Assembly (NCBI RefSeq): GCF_001586275.1
Contig: NZ_CP014545.1
Location: 1,576,501 to 1,640,500 of the forward strand
Length of the DNA stretch: 64,000 bases
From: Sphingorhabdus sp. M41
GTDB taxonomy: Bacteria > Pseudomonadota > Alphaproteobacteria > Sphingomonadales > Sphingomonadaceae
Direction: 5' to 3'
Shown here: piece after piece, positions 6,837-60,780 of the stretch
Numbering within the stretch: position 1 is the first letter of the stretch
How the letters are laid out: each line of letters opens with the position of its first letter
Position numbers and translations under genes: made by a program
The notes under the pieces: generated by a model
Told to the model about the DNA's origin: nothing
Databases searched by the model: none
The model's input: only the letters and a program-made list of their open reading frames with translations

Positions 6837-6882
6837 CGTTATTAGTCCCCCTATATTGGCATGATTTTGGTAAAATGTGACC

Positions 6883-7314
6883 TTAAAAAAGCGTGACCCA
6901 CAGGGCGTTGATCGCCATGATCAGCAGGCAGATGGTTGATGCTATGAAAAGCAGAAAGCGGACGTTGACCAGATTGACGGTCGCCTGCCAGATGCTGTGA
7001 ATGATCCGGATGATCGCATAGGCCCAGGCAAGATAGAGGTTCAGTCCGTGCCCTGCACCGGCAAGCGCAAGGATCACCACCGTGGCGTAAAATAGCGTCG
7101 GCTGTTCCATCAAATGGGTGTAATTGTGGGATTTCCAGTTCACCTTGTCGGGGATCACCCCTTCCAGGTCGCTGCCACGCCCGCCGGGAGGCGCCTTGGA
7201 AAGGTCCGCTCCTGATTTTGCCATGGCCGGGAATCTGGTGGCGGCCATCCAGAACAACATGATCAGTGACCACAGGACAAGCACCGATGCGGGTGCCAAA
7301 ATAGTAATATCCAT
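6883..7314 (-). CDS. MAPEG family membrane protein (copy 2)
   Basis: Paralogue of the neighbouring downstream gene, also 143 residues when started at the ATG at 7314, which has GGGGAGA eight bases upstream. The longer frame to 7353 would place that ribosome site inside the gene. It carries the MAPEG block HNYTHLMEQPTLFYATVV and four predicted membrane helices. A glycine-rich stretch (PPGGRGSDLEG) precedes the conserved block, at the position where copy 1 has a shorter GSKGGDLDE. A minus-strand TTGACA near 7365 could be the -35 of its promoter, but no convincing -10 was seen. Function unknown beyond the family. Confidence 0.85.
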   Translation of the reverse strand: MDITILAPASVLVLWSLIMLFWMAATRFPAMAKSGADLSKAPPGGRGSDLEGVIPDKVNWKSHNYTHLMEQPTLFYATVVILALAGAGHGLNLYLAWAYAIIRIIHSIWQATVNLVNVRFLLFIASTICLLIMAINALWVTLF

Positions 7315-7389
7315 GATTTTGTTCTCCCCAAAACTCGGGGGAAACTGCGTCAACTGTAAACGATTGTCAATTGCAACCTAGATTACGGC

Positions 7390-8589
7390 TCAGGCGCTCG
7401 GGAAAGACACCACATTGTCCCGGTCGGACCGGTCGAGATTGTCACCGACATAAAGGCTGGCCATCGGTTCGTCGGCAACATCATATTCGTCGCTGCTGCC
7501 ATAGCCGTTGAACTTGGTCCGCATCGCCGAACCATAAGCTCCGATCATGCCGATCTCGATATAGTCACCGGCCTTGATGCTGTCGGGCAGGGCAAAGGGA
7601 CCAGCCATGAAATCCATGTCGTCACAGGTCGGGCCGTAGAAGCTGAACCCGGTGGTGGGGCCCTCTTCCGAATCCGTACCAACCTGGCGCACCGGAAAGC
7701 GCCATCCGATATGCGCGGCGTCAAACAAGGTGCCATAGGCGCCGTCGTTGATGAACAGTTCGTTGCCACGCCGGCGTTCGACCTTGACCACCAGCGAGCT
7801 ATATTCAGCCGACAGGGCGCGGCCCGGTTCGCACCATAGTTCGGCGGAATAGCTGATTGGCAAATCCTCGAACGTGCGGTCGATGGCAGAGAAATAATGG
7901 TTGAGCGAAACTGGTTCCAGATCCGGATAGATGGAAGGAAAACCGCCGCCGACATTGACGATGTCAACGGTCACCGACGCGCCGACAATCGCCGTACGAA
8001 CCCGTTCCAGAGCGTGGACATAGGCAAGCGGGGTCATCGCCTGGCTGCCGACGTGGAAGCAGATGCCGAGGCAATCTGCCCGTTGCCGTGCACGCTGCAG
8101 CAATTCGGCCGATTCATCGACATCGACACCAAATTTCGAAGCGAGGCTGATTTCCGCAAATTCCGAAGCAACCCGGATCCGAACGCAAAGCGTCAGATCT
8201 TCGGCAAGCTCGGTTCCCAGCTCGATTTTTTCCAGTTCTTCAAGACTGTCGAGCGAGAAAATCCGCACACCATGGTCGCGATAGGCTTCTCGTACCGATG
8301 CCAGCTGCTTGACCGGATTCATGTAGCAGAGGGTCGCGTCCGGCAATGCCGCGCGAACGATGCGGACTTCGTCGATCGAAGCCACGTCAAAATGGGTTAC
8401 GCCTTCTTCCCACAGCAGCTGCAGCAATGCAGGCGAAGGATTCGCTTTGACAGCGTAAAGTGATTTGCCGGGGAATTGCTCGACGAAATAACGCGCAGCG
8501 CGTCGGGCTGCATGTGGCCGGTTAAGCAAGACTGGAATATCGGGGCTGAGAGCCCTCGTTAGCTCCTCAGCATCATGGTAATAGTGCAA
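7390..8589 (-). CDS. Ornithine decarboxylase-like fold-III PLP enzyme
   Basis: Probably decarboxylates ornithine (or lysine) to putrescine (or cadaverine). PLP-binding Lys48 lies in LYAVKANPSP, the phosphate-binding glycine loop in VGGGFPS, the CEPGRAL motif follows, and the second-subunit catalytic Cys is in YGPTCDDMD. No ATG exists at the 5' end. TTG at 8589 gives 399 residues, the usual length, with the start at LHYYH where family similarity should begin and AGGGGG about nine bases upstream. A GTG at 8709 would add 40 residues without a ribosome site. It lies downstream of the carboxy(nor)spermidine decarboxylase and dehydrogenase genes, which fits polyamine synthesis. Confidence 0.88.
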   Translation of the reverse strand: MHYYHDAEELTRALSPDIPVLLNRPHAARRAARYFVEQFPGKSLYAVKANPSPALLQLLWEEGVTHFDVASIDEVRIVRAALPDATLCYMNPVKQLASVREAYRDHGVRIFSLDSLEELEKIELGTELAEDLTLCVRIRVASEFAEISLASKFGVDVDESAELLQRARQRADCLGICFHVGSQAMTPLAYVHALERVRTAIVGASVTVDIVNVGGGFPSIYPDLEPVSLNHYFSAIDRTFEDLPISYSAELWCEPGRALSAEYSSLVVKVERRRGNELFINDGAYGTLFDAAHIGWRFPVRQVGTDSEEGPTTGFSFYGPTCDDMDFMAGPFALPDSIKAGDYIEIGMIGAYGSAMRTKFNGYGSSDEYDVADEPMASLYVGDNLDRSDRDNVVSFPSA

Positions 8590-8735
8590 CTCAAGGGACC
8601 CCCTATCGGCTAAGATCGATTGAGCTGCCTTGCGGATTCGCAAGCGGCCATGGGGCAGCGAAGCGCGGATATATGGCCGCTTTCCTGTTCTGTAAAGACC
8701 TGCAGTCACAGAAATTGTCGCAATCGGTCAATTTT

Positions 8736-9905
8736 CTAGCTCAACCGGTCTCTAAATGCCGTCCAATCGAAGTTTTTGACGCATTTTAGCGCGTCGCTTT
8801 CGCTGTTCCAGAGCCAGATTGAAGGCAGGGGAACACCGTTGAATGTGTTGGTCTTTACCATTGAATAATGCGCCTGATCAAGGAATGCGATGCGCTGACC
8901 GATATGCGGTTTGTCGGGCAGGATATAATCCCCGATAATATCCCCGGCGAGGCAGCTAGGACCGCCGAGACGAATGGCGGTGCCTTCGCTGCGCTCTCCC
9001 AGCATGGCCGGGCGATAGGGCGCCTCGATAACGTCGGGCATATGGCAGGTCGCGGAGATATCGGTAATCCCGACCGCCATGCCATTGTCGAAGACATCCA
9101 GTATCTCGCCGACCAAAATCCCCGCATCCAGCGCCACGGCTTCACCCGGCTCGAGATAGATTTCGCATCCCGATCTGGCTTTCAGCTGCTTCAGAAAAGC
9201 GACCAGCGCCTCGCGATCATAATCCTCACGCGTGATATGATGCCCGCCACCAAGATTGATCCATTTGAGCGAGCCGAAATGCGGCGCGATAACCGGTTCG
9301 ACCTCTGCCCAAGTCTCCGCCAGCGCGTCAAAGCCCTGTTCGCACAAATTGTGGAAGTGGATTCCGGACAGATGCTCAAAATGTTCCGGCCGCAGCTGAC
9401 TGAGCGGAAAACCGAGGCGGCTGTGGGGCTGGCTGGGATCATATTTTTCCGTTTCACCGAGCGCGATTTGCGGATTTATTCTTAAGCCAATTTCCGAACT
9501 ATCGAGAGCAAATTTATGATTAGAATCATTTTTCCATCGCTCAATCTGCGCCGGATTGTTGAACGTGATATGCCCGGAAATCTCACTAATTTCGGCCAGA
9601 TCGCCAGCTTTATAGGCCGGAGAATAGGTGCTGATCGGACCACGAAAATGCTCCCTGGCAAGCCGCGCCTCCCACAGCCCCGACGCACAATAGCCATCGA
9701 GATATTCGTCGATCAGCGGGGCAAGGGACCACATGGAAAAGGCCTTGAGCGCCAGCAGGACCTTCGCCCCGCTACGCTCCTTGATATCGGCCAGAATCTG
9801 CAGATTCCGGCGCACTGCCACTTCATCCACGACGAAGGCAGGCGAGGGCACCCGGCCCAGGTCAAATTGCGCAAAAGCGCCGGGATCGCCTGCCTTGGTC
9901 TCCAT
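8736..9905 (-). CDS. nspC: Carboxynorspermidine/carboxyspermidine decarboxylase
   Basis: A second fold-III PLP decarboxylase, 389 residues, of the NspC type. It removes the carboxylate from carboxyspermidine or carboxynorspermidine to yield spermidine or norspermidine. The PLP Lys is Lys54 in LLALKAFSMW; WINLGGGHHIT is the glycine loop, LEPGEAV the arginine-pocket equivalent, and GPSCLAGD contains the catalytic Cys. It starts one base after the stop of the carboxy(nor)spermidine dehydrogenase gene and precedes the ornithine decarboxylase, so the three steps putrescine formation, condensation and decarboxylation lie in one operon. Confidence 0.93.
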   Translation of the reverse strand: METKAGDPGAFAQFDLGRVPSPAFVVDEVAVRRNLQILADIKERSGAKVLLALKAFSMWSLAPLIDEYLDGYCASGLWEARLAREHFRGPISTYSPAYKAGDLAEISEISGHITFNNPAQIERWKNDSNHKFALDSSEIGLRINPQIALGETEKYDPSQPHSRLGFPLSQLRPEHFEHLSGIHFHNLCEQGFDALAETWAEVEPVIAPHFGSLKWINLGGGHHITREDYDREALVAFLKQLKARSGCEIYLEPGEAVALDAGILVGEILDVFDNGMAVGITDISATCHMPDVIEAPYRPAMLGERSEGTAIRLGGPSCLAGDIIGDYILPDKPHIGQRIAFLDQAHYSMVKTNTFNGVPLPSIWLWNSESDALKCVKNFDWTAFRDRLS

Positions 9906-52204: not shown

Positions 52205-54097
52205 TCAGAAACGCGCGCGCGCGCCAATGTACGCCGAACGCCCCGGAGAGCCAAAATCTGTGGCTGTTTCATAGGTTACATCGAACAGATTGTCGATACG
52301 TCCAAAGACTTCAAACGCATCGCTCAGCGGGATGCTCGCGCGTGCTCCGGCGAGTATATAGCCGTCGATACGGCGGCTGTTGGCGAGATCGTCGAAACTG
52401 TCACCCACCATCTGCATATCCGCGCCCAGTTTCAGACCGAAACCGGTCTCGTAGCTGGCGTTGAGATAGAGGCTGCTCGCCGGACGACGCGCCAGTTCAT
52501 TGCCGAAATTGGCGCCAGTCGACCGGTTCTCGGTGTCGAGCCAGGTGTAATTGGCGTCAAATCGCAGTCGCTCAACCGGGGTGATAGACAAGACCGCCTC
52601 GACGCCTTTGGTGCGGTTGCGTTCAATGTTCAAAGTCGTGCCGAACGGACGACTGCCATTGGTGCACACTTCTGGTGCGGGATCAGGCGCTACCGGACAG
52701 GCAGCAAAGGCGATCTGATTGTCGGTGTCGCGCTGGAACAGGGTCACGGCCACTTGCACCGCTTCGTCGATCAGCGAATGATCGATTCCGATTTCGTAGG
52801 ATTTTGCGGTTTCCGGCACCAGGTCTGGCGTGCCATAACCGAATGGGCGATCATCAAGATCGATCAGGGAAGGGGCCCTGAAGCCCTCGGCATAGCTGGC
52901 ACGGATTGTCGGTCCATCTTCACTAATGCGATAGGCGAGATTGCCGGCCAGGCTGGTATTGCCGCCAAAATCATCATGTTCGTCGTGCCGGATTCCGCCG
53001 GTCAGCGTGAGCCCGTCGACAGGCTTGAACACCGCCTGGAAATAGACGGAATCGATGCCGGTTGAATCACTCACTCCGCTATTTTCATAGCGGCTGTCTT
53101 CGGTCTCAGCGCCGAATATGAAGCGCAATTGATCGACTACGGCAAAGTCGCCCCGATATTCAAATCGTTCCGTCCGTCCTCTGGGCAGCGAGTTGAAAAA
53201 TGGGCTTATGATATCCCGGTTGATGTCGGAAATGCTGAAGGCGAACCGGTTCTGGAAACGCCCGTCAAATGCCTGGGCCTGAATGGCGGCGTTGCCGTAG
53301 ATTTCCTTCGCCAGCGAAAACTGGCTGTTGTCCGAACTAAAGGGCGGGAAGACGCTGTCATTGTCGACCCGGCTGTCGGCATAATAGCCGCTGGCTTCAA
53401 AACGGATCGTATCGGTCAGGTCGACCTGCAATTGTCCGGAAGCAGAATATTGGCGATAGCCGTCCAGTTCAGTTCCGCCGGAATAGACGCTGATACCGTC
53501 GGTGCGGACATAGCCGCCGCCGATGCTCAGGCCGACAGGCCCGACCTTGCCAGAGGCATTGCTGACCAGTCGCACCGTATCATGCGCGCCATATTCGCCC
53601 TGAACGAATAAAGTGAGATCCTCGGTCGGGCGTTTGGTGGTGATATTGACCACGCCGCCGACGGCCTGGCTGCCCCAGGTAACGCCACTGGCACCGCGCA
53701 AAACTTCCACGCGCTCGATATTGCCGGCCAGCAGATTGCCGAAATCAAAGGCACCATCGGGCGAGGACGGGTCGTTGACCCTGATGCCATTGATCAGCAC
53801 CAGTGTCTGATCGCTTTCCGCGCCGCGGATACGGACCGAGGTCTGTGACCCCAGTCCGCCGCTCTGGGTGACATTGACACCCGGCAGCTCCTGCAGAATG
53901 TCGGCAATCGAAATGATCTGCTGGTCGAGAATATCTGTTACATCGACAACGGATATAGCGGTGCCGGTGTCTTCGATATCCTGTTCAATACCGGTGGCGG
54001 TGACGATGATCTCGGAATCGTCGGCGGCCAGCGCAGGCACGGCGTAGCAATATGCGGAAGACGCCAAAAGCGTGGCTAAGGTTCGGAATTTATACAT
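52205..54097 (-). CDS. btuB: BtuB-like TonB-dependent cobalamin receptor
   Basis: Outer-membrane receptor for B12, 630 residues. The signal peptide is about 24 residues and ends AVPALA. A TonB-box-like E-I-I-V-T-A-T follows at 28-36, then the plug domain (VDVTDILDQQIISIADILQELPGVNVTQ region, starting near residue 50, with VRIRGAESDQTLVLINGIRV). The long barrel ends in the terminal aromatic residue (GARARF). The assignment to B12 rests on the riboswitch just upstream (54188-54350) and on general BtuB resemblance. AGGGAC serves the ATG. Confidence 0.9.
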   Translation of the reverse strand: MYKFRTLATLLASSAYCYAVPALAADDSEIIVTATGIEQDIEDTGTAISVVDVTDILDQQIISIADILQELPGVNVTQSGGLGSQTSVRIRGAESDQTLVLINGIRVNDPSSPDGAFDFGNLLAGNIERVEVLRGASGVTWGSQAVGGVVNITTKRPTEDLTLFVQGEYGAHDTVRLVSNASGKVGPVGLSIGGGYVRTDGISVYSGGTELDGYRQYSASGQLQVDLTDTIRFEASGYYADSRVDNDSVFPPFSSDNSQFSLAKEIYGNAAIQAQAFDGRFQNRFAFSISDINRDIISPFFNSLPRGRTERFEYRGDFAVVDQLRFIFGAETEDSRYENSGVSDSTGIDSVYFQAVFKPVDGLTLTGGIRHDEHDDFGGNTSLAGNLAYRISEDGPTIRASYAEGFRAPSLIDLDDRPFGYGTPDLVPETAKSYEIGIDHSLIDEAVQVAVTLFQRDTDNQIAFAACPVAPDPAPEVCTNGSRPFGTTLNIERNRTKGVEAVLSITPVERLRFDANYTWLDTENRSTGANFGNELARRPASSLYLNASYETGFGLKLGADMQMVGDSFDDLANSRRIDGYILAGARASIPLSDAFEVFGRIDNLFDVTYETATDFGSPGRSAYIGARARF

Positions 54098-54150: not shown

Positions 54151-54187
54151 GTTCACCCGACACACCCCGTCCGGCTGAAGAACGACG

Positions 54188-54350
54188 ATATAGGGCAGGT
54201 CTCCTGACTTGCGGATCGCTGTCGAACATGCCGCCTTCCCAGATCGGGTGATCCAGTGGCATTTGGCATATCGGCTAGCCGCTTACAGTTGCGGGGGCAG
54301 TACCGGATTTGAATAGGGCCGAAGCCTTTTTCTCACCGATTTCCCTTTGA
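54188..54350 (-). promoter_or_regulatory. Cobalamin riboswitch
   Basis: On the minus strand the conserved core is complete: GGTGAGAAA near the 5' end, then CTGCCCCCGCAACTGTAAGC (the central junction), GCCACTGG, CCGATCTGGGAAGGC, and the closing AGTCAGGAGACCTGCC (B12 box region). It precedes the BtuB-like receptor by about 90 bases. Adenosyl- or methylcobalamin binding should repress the operon. I see no gene in the rest of 54098-54592. Confidence 0.95.
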
Positions 54351-54592
54351 ATTCTCGATTAAGAGAAACCCAATATCTGGCGCCCCATTCGTCGAAAATG
54401 ATTCGAGTTGCAAGCCCAAATGTAAATTTGCCGTCCGTAGAAAAGCTTCTCATTATTCAGTGTATCAATAACCGCCAAGTTCTTGATTAACCGATTTCGC
54501 CGGTTAAATTCCGTCGGGGTGAGTGCAGAATCTACTTCGCTCCTGAATTCCAATCATGCTATAGGATGTTTCTCAATTTAGGAATGATAGTC

Positions 54593-54940
54593 ATGATTGC
54601 ATTTTTGAGTATTGCCTTGTTCAGCACCGTATCAGCCGCCGCACTCGATGATGCGGAAACCGCGCGCGTCGCTTATTCCAACTGCCTCGTTGATTTCACA
54701 ACGGCGCAACTGGACGAGAAAACCGGAACGAGCGCTTTCAAGAAAGCCGCTACAACTGCCTGTTCTGACGAGCGCAACGCAATGATCTCTGCGTTGAAAA
54801 AAGACGAAATGGAATTTGGCAGTTCGGATAGCGAGGCGACAAGCTTTGCAACGGAAGAAGCCGATGGTGTGCTCTTTTCCTTTACTGACGGTTACGCGGG
54901 ATATGCGAGTTCCAGTACGCGACCTGTCAAAGAGGAATGA
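54593..54940 (+). CDS. Small secreted protein, unknown
   Basis: About 115 residues. A signal peptide (MIAFLSIALFSTVSAAALDD, cleavage likely after VSA) is followed by a hydrophilic, helix-prone mature part with two cysteines (NCLVDF and TACSDERN), likely paired, and an acidic Ser/Thr-rich tail. ATG 54593 is chosen because AGGA lies nine bases before it; ATG 54566 and 54584 are in frame. No family recognised. It converges on the TpsB-like gene. Confidence 0.65.
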   Translation: MIAFLSIALFSTVSAAALDDAETARVAYSNCLVDFTTAQLDEKTGTSAFKKAATTACSDERNAMISALKKDEMEFGSSDSEATSFATEEADGVLFSFTDGYAGYASSSTRPVKEE

Positions 54941-55009: not shown

Positions 55010-56653
55010 CTAGAAGCGCAATCCTACCTGGATATTGATCTTGGGAGATTGGTCTCCGCTCTCAAAGCGATCGTTGCCGACCGGAGCAGCAGCTTCGAAG
55101 CTGAAATCCAGCCTGCCTATCTGAGAGCGAATTCCTCCCCCGGCCGATGCAAGCGAACCGTCGCCGAGGTTGGTTCCGATGTTGGAAACGTAACCACCAT
55201 CGACAAAGGCATAGAATTGAAGCCAGTCAAGCCATGCACTGACGTCGTTAAATTCCTTTCGCAGTTCGGCCAGGCCAAGGACACCTTCGTCGCCAAATCG
55301 TTCGCTGAAGTCATAGCCTTTACCGAAATAGGGACCACCGATTGCAATCTCATTCGCAGAGAGCAGGGGCCGTGAGGCGATTTGCGCATTGCCCGCCAAT
55401 CGCATGCCAAAGCCGTTTCCGATATTCAGAATGGAGTTGATCCAGAAATTTGCCTTGGTAAATTCGCCACTCCCGTCGTTCCGCGAATTCAGTGGATCGC
55501 CGCTTTGGCTTGCCCCAAAAATTCCCAGCCCTTGAGTAACCCCTAGGCCGCCATAAATTCGGCCAATACCGACATTATAATTTCCCGAGAAATTCAGTGC
55601 GGCGGTCGCAATCTGGTCATTCTGGAACAAGAGTCCATTTTGCGATTGCTGAACCTCCAAATAGGCAAGTTCGGCATTGAGCCATAGATTGAGATCATTG
55701 CTGCGTTTCAGAGCATGGCTGGCAAAAACCGATGCGTACCGATTGTGACCGGTGAAATCGAAATTGCTAAGCCTGCCACCAGATCGCGTGCGACCGCCTG
55801 CGCCTGAGATTCCAACCACGGTCCCGCCATTGCCCAGGGTCATGGCATATCGTGCATATATATAGGTCAGTTCTTTCGGTTGAATGGCCGACCCGATAAC
55901 ATTGGTGGTGAGCACATCACTGTCGGTCAACAATCCCGGAAGATCGAGATTCAGCCTCATTCGGATTGGACCAAGCGTTTCAGGACCGTAATTGTCCAGA
56001 GCTACATGCCCCTTTGCCTTGTCTTCCCGCACTGTAACGACAAGCACACCTTTACCATCTTCGCGCTGGTAATTTGAATTGAGCAGCGTAATTCCCGGCA
56101 AATCGCCAGCCAAAAGCAATTGTCGCTCGACGATATCTGAAAGCGCCGCCGGACGTTGCAACTCGTCCAGGATTTTTCTCAGGCGCCGGTTTGCTGACCC
56201 GATGATCCGAACTTCATCAATAGCGCCGGGATCAAGTAGCACCTCGACGATGCCGATTTTCACTGATTGGGATGGAATCCGTGCGCTGGCGAAAATATAG
56301 CCCCTGTTTCTAGCGGCGGCCGATACATCGCTCGCCAAATCCCGCAGCAAATCCTCGCTGGCTTCCTGTCCGATGAATTTCTCATAGCTACTGGCGAGAA
56401 GCTCGGCAGGGATTTGAGATCCGGAATTTATGCTTACTGCTCCGATTGTGATCGAAGGATTTTCACGGGCTTGTTGGTCAAGTTGCTGCGGAACAACAGC
56501 GGGTGCCACAACATCGTTTCCGCTTGGCACGCCAACTGTCCATTCGCCCTGATCGCCAACGCTTTCGAACGGATTTCCGTTTTGCTGAGCAAGAATGGAT
56601 GAGGGGCAGCAACTCAATAAGGTCCACATCAAAATTTTAATTTCTGGATGCAC
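55010..56653 (-). CDS. ShlB/FhaC/HecB-type two-partner secretion outer-membrane transporter (TpsB)
   Basis: Omp85-superfamily protein of 547 residues. A signal peptide (hydrophobic ILMWTLLSCCPSSILA) is followed by a Gln/Pro linker and a POTRA domain (GYIFASARIPSQSVKIGIVE near residue 105-125). A second POTRA and a 16-strand-like barrel end at the terminal Phe (QVGLRF). The usual VRGY loop motif reads FGKGYDF, Arg replaced by Lys. The GTG at 56653 has GGGAG six bases upstream; a TTG at 56695 would precede the ribosome site. The usual partner exoprotein (TpsA) is absent; the divergent neighbour is a FecR-repeat protein. Confidence 0.9.
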   Translation of the reverse strand: MHPEIKILMWTLLSCCPSSILAQQNGNPFESVGDQGEWTVGVPSGNDVVAPAVVPQQLDQQARENPSITIGAVSINSGSQIPAELLASSYEKFIGQEASEDLLRDLASDVSAAARNRGYIFASARIPSQSVKIGIVEVLLDPGAIDEVRIIGSANRRLRKILDELQRPAALSDIVERQLLLAGDLPGITLLNSNYQREDGKGVLVVTVREDKAKGHVALDNYGPETLGPIRMRLNLDLPGLLTDSDVLTTNVIGSAIQPKELTYIYARYAMTLGNGGTVVGISGAGGRTRSGGRLSNFDFTGHNRYASVFASHALKRSNDLNLWLNAELAYLEVQQSQNGLLFQNDQIATAALNFSGNYNVGIGRIYGGLGVTQGLGIFGASQSGDPLNSRNDGSGEFTKANFWINSILNIGNGFGMRLAGNAQIASRPLLSANEIAIGGPYFGKGYDFSERFGDEGVLGLAELRKEFNDVSAWLDWLQFYAFVDGGYVSNIGTNLGDGSLASAGGGIRSQIGRLDFSFEAAAPVGNDRFESGDQSPKINIQVGLRF

Positions 56654-56846
56654 AAACAACTCCCGGGGCACAAAACAAGCCTGTTTAGACCGCAAATCTT
56701 AGGAATTTCTTAGCGGGTCAGGTGTTTAACGGAATATTCATGGCGTTCTTAAACTATTTCCGGAACATTCTTTGCTAATGGTCTCATTATATAACCACTG
56801 TGAATCTCAGAAGACGATCTGAAACCGAAAAAAGCGATTTACCAAT
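56654..56846. promoter_or_regulatory. Shared divergent promoter region with repeated GGAA-TTC sites
   Basis: This 193-base A+T-rich spacer separates the TpsB-like gene from the FecR-repeat gene and must hold both promoters. GGAATATTC (56731-56739) and GGAACATTC (56762-56770) are near-palindromic and lie 31 bases apart, about three helical turns. A weaker GGAATTTCT (56702-56710) lies 29 bases further left. They are plausible operators for a shared regulator, but this rests on three short matches. Confidence 0.4.
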
Positions 56847-58334
56847 ATGAAAAAATTTCTCTCGATTATTGCCCTCATGACGGCAGGGACAGCTCATGCA
56901 GAAGCCCCGCAATGGAAACTTTCTGAAAGTGCCGGGACCGTCAATATACTGCGTTCCGGCGTATCACGAATTGCGATGAACGGCGGAAGCCTTGACGTCG
57001 GCGACGTTATTGCCACAGGTTATAAGAGTCGCGCAGTTTTGGTTCGCGGACAGGAATATGTTATTGTTTCACCAAACAGCCGTCTCAGGATAAGTGCGCC
57101 CAAGCAAAGTGGTGGTATCGTCCAGTTTTTTGAAGAAATCGGTAATGTCCTGTTTCGGATCGACAAAAAGGCAACGCCGCATTTCGGTGTAGAAACCCCA
57201 TATCTTGCGGCTGTGGTCAAGGGGACCACGTTCAGCGTGACCGTGACAGAAACCGGAACGGCGGTGCAGGTGACCGAGGGCGCTGTGCAAGTGTCGACTC
57301 TGGATGGTGGGGCGACTCAATTATTGTCACCCGGCATGATCGGGATGGTTAATCGGGACCAGCAATTCCGTCTGACTATCGCGGGCGCAGAATCCCGGAC
57401 GATTGATTCGCCCAATGCGCCAGCCAGCGGTAGAGATGAACCGGAAATTCTGAACGAAGAGGGTTCGAGCGAAATCGCTACCAGTTCTTTTGAAGGAACC
57501 ATAACCGCCCCTGTACTGGAGACTCCCGTTTCGCTCAGTGGTTTGACTGGTGGTCTGGTCAGCAACGGTGGATCTTCGCTTGATACAGCAAGAATGGCGG
57601 CATCGAACTCTGCAATTCCCAGCTTTGCCGAAAAAAATGGTGGTTTGAATAATAGCAATCCAGGCGCTGTTGGAAACGGCAATGGCAATCCGTTCGGCGG
57701 TGAAAACAATCGCGCTAACAGCAATGCCGGTGGTAATGGCAACGGAAATGCCAACGGCAATGGCAATGGCAATGCTGGTGGTAATGGCAACGGAAATGCC
57801 GGCGGTAATGACAATGGTAATGCTGGCAGCGATGGCAGCGGCAATGCTGGCGGCAACGGCAATGCTGGCGGCAATGGCAACGGCAATGCTGGCGGCAACG
57901 GCAATGCTGGCGGCGACGGCAACGGCAACGCTGGCGGCGACGGCAACGGCAATGCTGGCAGCGATGGCAGCGGCAATGCTGGCGGCGATGGGAGCGGCAA
58001 TGCTGGCGGCGACGGCAACGGCAATGCTGGCGGCAATGGCAATGGTAATGCTGGCAGCGATGGCAGCGGCAATGGCAACGGCAATGCTGGCGGTAATGCC
58101 AGCGGCAATGCTGGCGGCAACGGCAACGGAAATGCCGGCGGGAACGGCAACGGCAATGCTGGCGGTAATGGTGCTGCTGATACTACTGTTGACAGCAACG
58201 CAGGTGGCAACGTCAACGCTGGGATCACTATCGACAGTAACGCTGGCGGCAATGGCAATGGCAATGCTGGCGGCAATGGAAATGGCAATGCAGGCGGCAA
58301 TGCCGACGGTAACGTGAAAATTAAAGCCAAATAG
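56847..58334 (+). CDS. FecR-domain periplasmic or surface protein with Gly/Asn-rich octapeptide repeats
   Basis: A 495-residue secreted protein. The signal peptide is [19 protein letters not shown] FecR domain follows at about residues 40-160 ([37 protein letters not shown]), then a Ser/Glu-rich linker to about 290. Next come about 23 repeats of consensus N-A-G-G-N-G-N-G to residue 488, with a basic end NVKIKAK. The domain resembles signalling FecR but has no sigma-factor partner here. It lacks a TPS (hemagglutinin) domain, so it is not a standard partner for the adjacent transporter. It precedes the CHASE2-EAL gene by 121 bases. Confidence 0.85.
57723..58310 (+). repeat. Tandem 24-base repeats coding for Gly/Asn octapeptides
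   Basis: About 23 in-frame units, mostly 24 bases (N-A-G-G-N-G-N-G), with six-residue (18-base) and longer variants. Units reading N-A-G-S-D-G-S-G recur at positions 5, 11 and 15, and the stretch carrying them looks duplicated. Two units near the end carry inserts ([17 protein letters not shown]). Synonymous differences (ggc/ggt/ggg; aat/aac) show that the tract is not freshly expanded. Confidence 0.9.
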
Positions 58335-58455
58335 CAGAGCAAGACTCCACCGCTGTTTAGATTCTACAAAAGCTCAGCCTCAGTTTGCGACTGCATTAAC
58401 GCAAAATAGATAGGTCTAGAGTAATAGGATCACCAACTGACGAGCGGAGATATCG

Positions 58456-60780
58456 TTGAAGACTGATTTTTCTTCTATCAGGGCAATCGCATTTAACCTC
58501 GCATTCTTGCCCTGGATATTGGCGCTAGCGGCTGGTCTTGCATTGGTTTCGGCCGACTTCGGTAACGATGTTGAAGAAAGATTGAGCAATCTGCGCGCTA
58601 ATGTGCTGGAAAAACCGGCATCTGGCCAAGTCGTTATCGTCGAAATTGATGCAATATCTCTTCAGCAACTGGATCGCTGGCCATGGCCACGCGCATATTA
58701 TGCCAAAGCGGTCGACAAGCTGAATGAAGCTGGCGCAACGCAGATCGCGTTCGATATAGATTTTTCATCCCGCTCCACCGAAACAGACGATCAGATTCTC
58801 GCAGATGCCTTTGAGAAATCCGATGCCACGATCATTCTCCCGACATTTCGGCAACGAGGGTCAACAGATCGAGGAGAATTTGTCGAAAGCCTGCCGAACA
58901 CCCTCTTTCGCCAAAATGCGTTTCTGGCTTCCGTGAATGTTTTTCCTGACAGTCGCGGTCAACTGAATGAATATAGCTATGGAACGACTACCGCGAACAC
59001 AACACGTCCATCGCTGGCTAGCATGGTCGCACAAGCCCGTGGCAATATCGGTCAAAAATTTGCGATCGATCAATCTATCGACCCCAACACAATTCCCCGA
59101 CTAAGCTTTGCAGAACTGATGGGCTCGACCGATCTCTCTCCGAAGTTAAGGGGTAAAACGGCGCTCATCGGAGCTACCGCCATAGAATTGGGTGATCGTT
59201 ACTCTACCAGTCGTTTTGGAGTGGTTCCCGGTGTCGTCATCCAGGCGATGGCGAGTGAAACGTTGATCCAGAGAACGAATTTGCACGACCTTGGGAAATT
59301 TCCGGCGTTGATATTTTCGGCCATCTTGATGTTGGCCTGTACAGCATCTCGCAGAATCTCTTCCCCCGGTCTCATCGGAATCGCCTTTTCAGCCATTATA
59401 GCGCTGGTGGCACTCCTGTTGCTGATTGAATATTTGAGCTTTTTCACATTTTCTAACGTGCCGGCCTTTTTCTTCCTGACCGTATTTATGCTGTCGCAAA
59501 AGTTGCTGACGACGACAACGGCTCTAAAGACCAGCCAATATGTAAGTGAAATCAGCGGACTGCCTAACGAGGCGGCGTTACTGAAGATTCTAGCCACGAA
59601 AGGTTCCGGCTATATTGCCACGGCCCGACTGGCAGACTTCCGCGAATTGCTTGTGTTGACCAGTAGGGAATCTCGTAGCGTTCTGTTCCAGAATATCGCC
59701 AGCCGACTGAATTTTCTGGCCCGGGATGAGTGCATTTATCATGTCGATTCAGACATGGTCGCATGGATTGTGAGGCATGAATATACTGACGATATTCCGG
59801 GCCATTTCGACACCGCAACTGCACTGCTCCAGGCCCCCGTCATGGCAGGAGACACCAAGATCAAGATAGATGCGACTTTCGGTATCAGCGGTGACTCTCT
59901 GGACAAGTCCAAAATCGCATCGGAAAAGGCACTCGCCAACGGGACGAAATGGTCATGGCACGATTCCGAATTTGACCATGCCATTGGTCAAAAGCACAAT
60001 CTGCTGATGGAACTGGATCAGGCTATCGAGGACGGTAATCTTGGTGTGGTTTATCAACCCAAATGGGACCTTTTGGCAAATCGGCTCGACGGCGCAGAAG
60101 CTCTGGTTCGTTGGGACCATCCCGACCGTGGCACGATAAGTCCGGCAATATTCATTCCCCTGCTAGAAAAAGCCGGCCGCATCGACGGACTGACATTTCA
60201 CGTTTTGCAACGCGCACTGGATGATTTGACCAAGTGGGGAGAACGACGCCCCGGGCTGACCTGCTCCGTCAATATTTCTGCCAAGCTGCTGGGTGACAAG
60301 GCCTTTGTGCACAGGGCAATTGTCATGGTGGAAGAAGCAGATGTCGATAATGTTCAGATTGTTTTCGAAGTCACTGAAACAGCAACGCTCGCGGACCCGG
60401 AACGATCTGCATTGGCACTGAAACTCATTCAGAATGCGGGTATAAGAGTGTCCATTGATGACTATGGAACCGGTCAGTCGACCATGAGCTATTTGCAGCG
60501 CCTGCCAGTCAGCGAAATCAAGCTGGATCAAAGCTTCGTGAAAACAATGACCACTGACAGCGCCAACCGGGTCATGGTCAAATCCACCATCAAAATGGCT
60601 CATGCTCTCGGCTATAAAATTGTCGCAGAAGGAATTGAGGACCAGCCGTGCTTGGAATTGCTGACCCGATACGGGTGCGATATCGGCCAGGGCTGGCATA
60701 TATCCAAACCGGTCACGCCCGAAGTATTTGAAACTGACTGGCTGGACAGCGCATTTGAAGAGGCGCGCTTGTCGGCCTGA
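58456..60780 (+). CDS. CHASE2-EAL c-di-GMP phosphodiesterase with degenerate GGDEF
   Basis: A 774-residue membrane signalling protein. Helix 1 (residues 13-33) precedes a periplasmic CHASE2 sensor (about 36-280; DAISLQQLDRWPWPR and FDIDFSSRS are typical). Three helices follow (285-350), then a degenerate GGDEF domain (starts SGLPNEAALL; loop reads VDSDMV) and an EAL domain (from about 515). The EAL residues are all present: GAEALVRW, NIS, FEVTET, DDYGTG, IKLDQSF, EGIE and QGW. It should hydrolyse c-di-GMP. The TTG start has GGAG upstream. CHASE2 and FecR genes often neighbour each other in bacteria, as I recall, so the FecR protein may be its partner. Confidence 0.9.
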   Translation: MKTDFSSIRAIAFNLAFLPWILALAAGLALVSADFGNDVEERLSNLRANVLEKPASGQVVIVEIDAISLQQLDRWPWPRAYYAKAVDKLNEAGATQIAFDIDFSSRSTETDDQILADAFEKSDATIILPTFRQRGSTDRGEFVESLPNTLFRQNAFLASVNVFPDSRGQLNEYSYGTTTANTTRPSLASMVAQARGNIGQKFAIDQSIDPNTIPRLSFAELMGSTDLSPKLRGKTALIGATAIELGDRYSTSRFGVVPGVVIQAMASETLIQRTNLHDLGKFPALIFSAILMLACTASRRISSPGLIGIAFSAIIALVALLLLIEYLSFFTFSNVPAFFFLTVFMLSQKLLTTTTALKTSQYVSEISGLPNEAALLKILATKGSGYIATARLADFRELLVLTSRESRSVLFQNIASRLNFLARDECIYHVDSDMVAWIVRHEYTDDIPGHFDTATALLQAPVMAGDTKIKIDATFGISGDSLDKSKIASEKALANGTKWSWHDSEFDHAIGQKHNLLMELDQAIEDGNLGVVYQPKWDLLANRLDGAEALVRWDHPDRGTISPAIFIPLLEKAGRIDGLTFHVLQRALDDLTKWGERRPGLTCSVNISAKLLGDKAFVHRAIVMVEEADVDNVQIVFEVTETATLADPERSALALKLIQNAGIRVSIDDYGTGQSTMSYLQRLPVSEIKLDQSFVKTMTTDSANRVMVKSTIKMAHALGYKIVAEGIEDQPCLELLTRYGCDIGQGWHISKPVTPEVFETDWLDSAFEEARLSA

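Follow-up and report, generated by a model that had tools for sequence, protein, structure and literature searches.

A conserved TpsB/FecR/CHASE2 gene trio in Sphingorhabdus sp. M41 as a candidate route from the cell surface to c-di-GMP

Described systems closest to the locus

Surface signalling of the Fec type employs a TonB receptor with a signalling domain, a membrane FecR protein with a cytoplasmic anti-sigma domain and an ECF sigma factor. Unlike such Fec/Pup-type systems, the window (the whole stretch of 64,000 nucleotides analyzed here from the Sphingorhabdus sp. M41 genome) encodes a TpsB, a soluble FecR protein and a CHASE2-EAL receptor, and by Pfam the nearby TonB receptor shows no signalling domain and the FecR protein no anti-sigma domain. 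In the RcsF-BamA/OMP sensor, the disordered part of an exported protein is threaded in the barrel and misassembly is signalled to the inner membrane; here, the resemblance is one of analogy only, and no sequence kinship is known to us.

The BiofilmReg operon of Burkholderia is tied to biofilm, and in it, as in the window, a CHASE2 receptor gene adjoins the gene of an exported protein with a FecR domain (PMC5192318, available part). However, the available part of that publication lists a LysM-FecR protein, a histidine kinase with response regulator and DUF4136, and there neither TpsB nor a repeat tail appears (PMC5192318). LysM, a histidine kinase output and a response regulator are absent from the window trio according to Pfam, and a BiofilmReg-type operon bearing all three is found separately in Sphingorhabdus sp. 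M41 (locus L040). As of 2016, what CHASE2 sensor domains respond to was said to be unknown (PMC5192318, available part), the exception met being NsrA of Sinorhizobium meliloti, an outer-membrane beta-barrel protein feeding inner-membrane adenylate cyclases with CHASE2 domains (PMC13001267, PMC7529298, available parts). Signalling from an outer-membrane beta-barrel into a CHASE2 receptor is what NsrA would share with the window, whereas in the available passages it is not called a TpsB, no FecR partner is named and the output is cAMP (PMC13001267, PMC7529298).

The CdrA/CdrB-LapG-LapD and LapA systems resemble the locus in having a TpsB pore (CdrB) or a type 1 pore (LapE) for a c-di-GMP-controlled surface adhesin and, putatively, in a retention-module-like part (PMC4694147, available part). 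These systems, however, possess LapG and a degenerate, non-catalytic EAL protein (LapD), while in Sphingorhabdus sp. M41 LapG was not found and the EAL signature residues of the window protein are intact. Within the family sample, LapG (PF06035) was detected in none of the 12 genomes that carry the cluster with its TpsB, Sphingorhabdus sp. M41 included, and in 21 of the other 87 genomes. Lap-type proteolysis was therefore rejected for strain M41. A description of the TpsB/FecR/CHASE2 trio was not found in the open-access literature, so that the term 'undescribed' used in an earlier note on this DNA stands for the trio but has to be narrowed with regard to the published FecR-CHASE2 operon of another kind (PMC5192318, available part).

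Gene content and conservation of the trio

ORF, Pfam and TRF analyses agree with the earlier note on the three genes and the short gap before the receptor gene. The features are as follows:

55010–56695, minus strand: TpsB-family outer-membrane transporter (ORF and Pfam)
56696–56846, no strand: TpsB/FecR divergent intergenic region (ORF coordinates; divergence in 84/84 TpsB-bearing loci, of 88)
56847–58334, plus strand: FecR-repeat protein, whole ORF (ORF and Pfam)
56847–57416, plus strand: Sec signal peptide (residues 1–18, by inspection) and folded beta domain (residues 22–190) of the FecR protein
57525–57569, plus strand: conserved 15-residue motif (residues 227–241), mostly in FecR proteins encoded beside TpsB
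57627–58331, plus strand: low-complexity Gly/Asn tail of the FecR protein (composition; TRF repeats)
58456–60780, plus strand: CHASE2-EAL phosphodiesterase (ORF and Pfam)

The TpsB product comprises a signal peptide, two POTRA-like domains, one of which is reported by Pfam, and a beta-barrel (ShlB 81.3 bits, POTRA_2 29.5 bits, both above cut-off). The POTRA domains and the Omp85-type barrel of type Vb two-partner secretion are both present, and the fold is CdiB/FhaC-like. Judging from its Shine-Dalgarno spacing, the true start is probably the GTG at 56653, giving 547 aa, the same length as in relative L028. The putative promoters of both divergent genes probably lie within the intergenic region.

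In the FecR protein, Pfam shows only the FecR domain (39.4 bits, above cut-off) after the signal peptide and no LysM. In the predicted fold, residues 50–182 resemble the PupR/FecR signalling domain, and residues 22–109 show a weaker likeness to a LapA-type retention module; 5IX9 is presumably a region of a LapA-type adhesin, and no paper on it was found in the open-access literature. The C-terminal 235 residues consist of 39% G, 29% N and 14% A, with TRF repeats at 57717–58303 built from a 24-bp unit and its multiples. Tails of FecR relatives are also long and of low complexity (median entropy of 2.8 bits, 94 tails). The receptor gene follows after 121 bases (58335–58455), and its product carries CHASE2 at residues 35–278 (109.8 bits versus a cut-off of 26.3), hydrophobic helices at about 285–355 (by inspection), a degenerate GGDEF domain at about 360–500, matching the intact GGDEF of a relative with an hhalign probability of 97%, and EAL at 519–752 (219.1 bits, above cut-off). 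The EAL signature residues, which we take to be catalytic, are intact and invariant across 12 aligned sequences.

The neighbourhood survey, covering Alphaproteobacteria as well as plasmid and phage collections, found the co-occurrence that the earlier note had suggested looking for in Sphingomonadales, and also found it in other orders. Among 88 FecR loci of the Sphingomonadales type, a divergent TpsB gene lies directly upstream of FecR in 84, the most constant feature, while CHASE2 changes place, being encoded after FecR in 52 and after TpsB in 23. Linkage therefore outlasts rearrangement. In the loci read from other alphaproteobacterial orders, the TpsB, tailed FecR and CHASE2 input is mostly combined with a histidine kinase output. 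The trio is a conserved module and not a chance arrangement; a fourth conserved gene was not found in 66 loci. The TonB receptor encoded at 52205–54097 was rejected as a partner, since it shows no signalling domain (Plug and barrel only) and its gene has a cobalamin riboswitch just upstream.

Search for an exoprotein and alternative readings

In two-partner secretion (type Vb), the cognate TpsA with its TPS domain is normally encoded adjacent to TpsB. For TPS domains, PF05860 was searched at a looser limit with positive-control genomes, and the N-terminus of Sphingorhabdus sp. M41's own exoprotein served as second query. Beside the cluster TpsB, neither query found a TPS exoprotein in any of 13 genomes, whereas all other TpsBs have an adjacent one (8/8 non-cluster TpsBs in cluster genomes and 5/5 in three control genomes, i.e., 13/13). 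Because of this difference, the cluster TpsB looks like a true orphan, in keeping with the earlier note, which had seen no TpsA. With the co-occurrence found as well, neither of the note's refuting conditions that computation can address came true. Canonical secretion with a TpsA encoded elsewhere in the genome was rejected, as neither search revealed one.

As TpsB looks orphaned and has no partner more constant than the FecR protein, it may be asked whether the latter is itself the exoprotein, with the FecR domain replacing TPS as secretion signal, the tail acting as an adhesin at the surface or in the matrix and CHASE2-EAL doing no more than tuning biofilm output. The beta domain directly following the signal peptide, as in TpsA, and the long low-complexity tails are compatible with this. 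Nevertheless, we regard such non-canonical secretion as unlikely, since FecR and CHASE2 also occur as pairs where TpsB is lacking and the fold predicted for the FecR domain resembles PupR and a domain of retention-module type; a TPS-type helix is not among the listed fold matches, an absence that is weak and excludes nothing.

Even less probable is the export of another, unlinked or unrecognised protein by TpsB, with FecR and CHASE2 sensing its traffic in the way FecR reads FecA. The CdiB/FhaC-like fold would fit, and the second TpsB of Sphingorhabdus sp. M41 indeed adjoins a giant exoprotein and a CHASE2-cyclase (a 270-aa protein of that locus aligns with FecR at an hhalign probability of only 16%). 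However, six genomes having the cluster-type TpsB as their sole TpsB show no TPS match by either search, and all TPS matches except a noise-level one adjoin another TpsB.

A self-sufficient periplasmic FecR-CHASE2 sensor of cell wall or osmotic state, of a kind that the BiofilmReg operon may also encode, with TpsB merely co-regulated, would agree with loci without TpsB and with the LysM-FecR/CHASE2-kinase operon published (PMC5192318, available part) and also present in strain M41, but is improbable given the constancy of TpsB-FecR adjacency (84/88) while CHASE2 moves and the missing LysM domain in the window protein.

A proposed trans-envelope route

On balance, we favour a module in which the FecR protein is both the partner of TpsB, as client or plug, and the ligand of CHASE2. 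The 15-residue motif occurs in 88 of 93 FecR proteins with a TpsB neighbour versus 2 of 11 without, a comparison reflecting few independent events and too few pairs for a phylogeny-controlled test. The earlier note's idea that the FecR protein is exported by or plugs TpsB thus gains from this motif, the orphan TpsB and the retention-module-like fold, but tailed FecR-CHASE2 pairs, with low-complexity tails, also occur in six genomes where no TpsB of the cluster family was found. The repeat tail therefore does not need TpsB.

In the favoured module, TpsB would form an FhaC/CdiB-type outer-membrane pore lacking TpsA. The FecR protein would be exported by Sec, its folded domain remaining periplasmic while the short motif and the disordered tail engage TpsB, and the tail would probably enter or cross the pore to the surface; that it is actually surface-exposed we consider slightly less than an even prospect. 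CHASE2, as the periplasmic part of the receptor in the inner membrane, would read the periplasmic FecR domain and set the output, which is the EAL phosphodiesterase in the window and a histidine kinase in the majority of the loci read from other orders. The condition of the outer membrane, or that of the tail on display, might thereby be coupled to c-di-GMP and hence to adhesion or motility. Next to the observed gene linkage, domain content, orphan TpsB and swap of outputs, we infer the FecR-TpsB and FecR-CHASE2 contacts, the export of the tail and the sign of the change in c-di-GMP.

Probably, the products of the trio act as one device that informs the cell interior of conditions at its surface, and surface state would be linked to c-di-GMP with no need of Lap-type proteolysis. 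The constant divergent TpsB-FecR pair with CHASE2 at varying outputs suggests a candidate CHASE2 input, namely a FecR protein that resides in the periplasm and is connected to a pore of the outer membrane, and the well-supported TpsB without TpsA would extend two-partner transporters from secretion to trans-envelope sensing. More tentatively, and rather doubtful as a whole, the trio may represent a TpsB system of a new class that uses a FecR/retention-module domain where others have the TPS domain; a disordered repeat tail of free composition would be threaded via TpsB to the surface and stay plugged by the periplasmic domain serving as CHASE2 ligand, and c-di-GMP or a histidine kinase would be switched when the tail is threaded or the plug released.

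Conservation of the TpsB, FecR and CHASE2 genes

The earlier note had grouped a divergent TpsB transporter gene, a FecR-domain gene with a Gly/Asn-rich tail and a CHASE2-EAL phosphodiesterase gene, and this trio does co-occur across Sphingomonadales. In an even family sample of 99 genomes, 13 (source genome counted) encode a FecR homologue at E < 1e-30. Ten of the 12 others carry the full trio, while one contig ends directly behind FecR and G077 (locus L039) shows FecR and CHASE2-EAL without TpsB. From a named-genome scan, the best 80 of 431 relatives were taken, which are Sphingomonadales by record title except for one unclassified Proteobacteria MAG. The FecR locus set comprised 88 loci after removal of five duplicate contigs, with the window counted and close relatives among them. 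As these loci were chosen on FecR similarity only, presence of TpsB and CHASE2 was no selection criterion. TpsB is divergent and directly upstream of FecR in 84/88, missing only in L039, L070, L096 and L064, the contig of the latter starting within FecR. CHASE2 is visible in 77/88, positioned behind FecR (52), behind TpsB (23) or elsewhere (2), with at least two changes of position on a quick FecR tree. Among the 11 loci where none was seen, a contig edge lies at most 2 bases from the FecR frame in eight (L031, L055, L056, L060, L071, L086, L122, L123) and L102 has just 738 bases on the TpsB side; in L096 and L114 the absence is real or possibly so. No gene besides the trio is conserved, the most frequent flanking cluster occurring in 9/66 loci. 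Hence, the three genes belong together. On the TpsB side, the window shows the following features:

52205–54097, minus strand: TonB-dependent receptor, its sequence cluster present in 6/66 related loci
54177–54388, minus strand: cobalamin riboswitch (123 bits), just upstream of this receptor
54566–54940, plus strand: 124-aa ORF with signal-peptide-like start and no Pfam match, between the B12 receptor and TpsB

The receptor is probably an ordinary B12 uptake gene adjoining the trio.

Orphan TpsB and proposed mechanism

TPS exoproteins were searched with two queries (PF05860 and the N-terminus of the source genome's own exoprotein) in 16 genomes, namely 13 with a window-type cluster, each read directly, and three positive controls (G247, G259, G224) chosen for strong ShlB matches. 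A TPS match adjoins the cluster TpsB in 0/13 genomes versus 13/13 other TpsBs, by one or other query (8/8 in the cluster genomes, 5/5 in the controls; Fisher 2e-7 with and 5e-6 without control genomes), corroborating the proposed lack of a TpsA partner. In G044, G059, G068, G242, G206 and G178, the cluster TpsB is the sole ShlB match and neither query gave a TPS match. A weak match in G091 (17 bits, 266-aa frame, adjoining no TpsB) was taken as noise. The client may be an exoprotein without recognisable TPS domain, for which the FecR protein would be the nearest candidate.

The TpsB gene is a family member. With no TpsA found by either query, the trio is not a canonical two-partner system. Nor is it a Lap system: among the genomes sampled from the family, the protease LapG (PF06035) was found in 0/12 that carry the cluster with TpsB, own genome counted, versus 21/87 others (Fisher 0.065), making a Lap-type release step unavailable here. 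The trio is a TpsB-bearing variant of FecR-CHASE2 signalling, of which no published description was found in open-access full texts.

A trans-envelope device is the favoured mechanism, in which TpsB would be the pore and the FecR protein its client or plug, with the FecR domain in the periplasm, to be read by CHASE2 with EAL as output. Precedents are reported with the outer-membrane barrel NsrA feeding CHASE2 cyclases in S. meliloti (PMC13001267, PMC7529298), a biofilm-linked FecR-CHASE2 operon in Burkholderia (PMC5192318) and CdrA/CdrB, an adhesin exported by a TpsB with its surface presence governed by LapG (PMC4694147). Counting against this mechanism, six genomes (G077, G346, G347, G545, G391, G262) possess FecR-CHASE2, while a TpsB of this family was not found in them, pointing to FecR-CHASE2 as the older or freer core; moreover, GN-rich FecR tails also occur independently of TpsB.

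Output domains outside the order and on plasmids

Within the class, 31/289 genomes gave a profile match at E up to 1e-8. Twenty-eight of the matches come from other orders, and 18 of their loci were retrieved, leaving out weak matches. TpsB lies within the retrieved stretch in nine (L149–L157), where CHASE2 is followed by a histidine kinase in seven (L149–L153, L156, L157), L155 encodes CHASE2-PAS-GGDEF-EAL and L154 is cut by a contig end. Seven of the 16 CHASE2 proteins in the 18 loci were typed by Pfam (L149, L152, L155, L156, L159, L161, L165), the remainder by our own kinase or EAL profile. Loci with TpsB thus retain TpsB, FecR and CHASE2 as the input side and differ in the output side, which is the behaviour of a signalling module. 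L164 and L166, whose retrieved stretches lack TpsB, each have a tandem pair of FecR-tail genes ahead of a single CHASE2-kinase.

Plasmid loci were matched 13 times and three were opened. That of Bosea sp. Tri-49 (Hyphomicrobiales) encodes ShlB, FecR with a NAGGNGNG tail and CHASE2-PAS-GGDEF-EAL in the gene order of the window. The locus on Sinorhizobium sp. B11 plasmid p2 (L199) lacks TpsB and has CHASE2 and EAL as two overlapping frames behind FecR (6849–9684), at a place left without gene annotation in the record, perhaps a broken gene. On the conjugative Rhizobium sp. BG4 plasmid pRPC2 (L198), only FecR of the trio is found; the gene running divergently to it encodes an adenylate/guanylate cyclase in which CHASE2 was not matched.

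Further CHASE2 loci

Of the 119 ShlB loci in 196 genomes of the order, at least 33 have CHASE2 no farther than 5 kb away, versus 1.3 expected within 10 kb at uniform placement. Two kinds are among them, that of the window and a CHAT/CHASE2-cyclase/TpsB kind. Besides the trio, the source genome has two CHASE2 loci. L040 (7174–12139) encodes a response regulator, LysM-FecR and CHASE2-PAS-histidine kinase, with a DUF4136-like gene convergent to them (weakly matched, below cut-off). It is of the type of the Burkholderia operon, BiofilmReg, found here in an alphaproteobacterium and reported in the literature from beta- and gammaproteobacteria.

L041 (5835–19001; G000:C1 about 2311834–2325000) encodes CHAT-TPR, CHASE2-adenylate cyclase, a 270-aa protein, TpsB and a 3128-aa exoprotein frame, so that both TpsBs of the genome adjoin CHASE2 receptors. 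It represents a second conserved TpsB-CHASE2 locus (relatives L171–L185); 20 further TpsB-CHASE2 loci retrieved comprise 15 of this type or near it, four of the window type and one of neither. Caspase-like CHAT, cyclase receptor and secretion system form a combination that seems not to have been explored. In loci of this type, the giant exoprotein is barely detected by the Pfam TPS model, and the 270-aa protein is present in two copies in five relatives.
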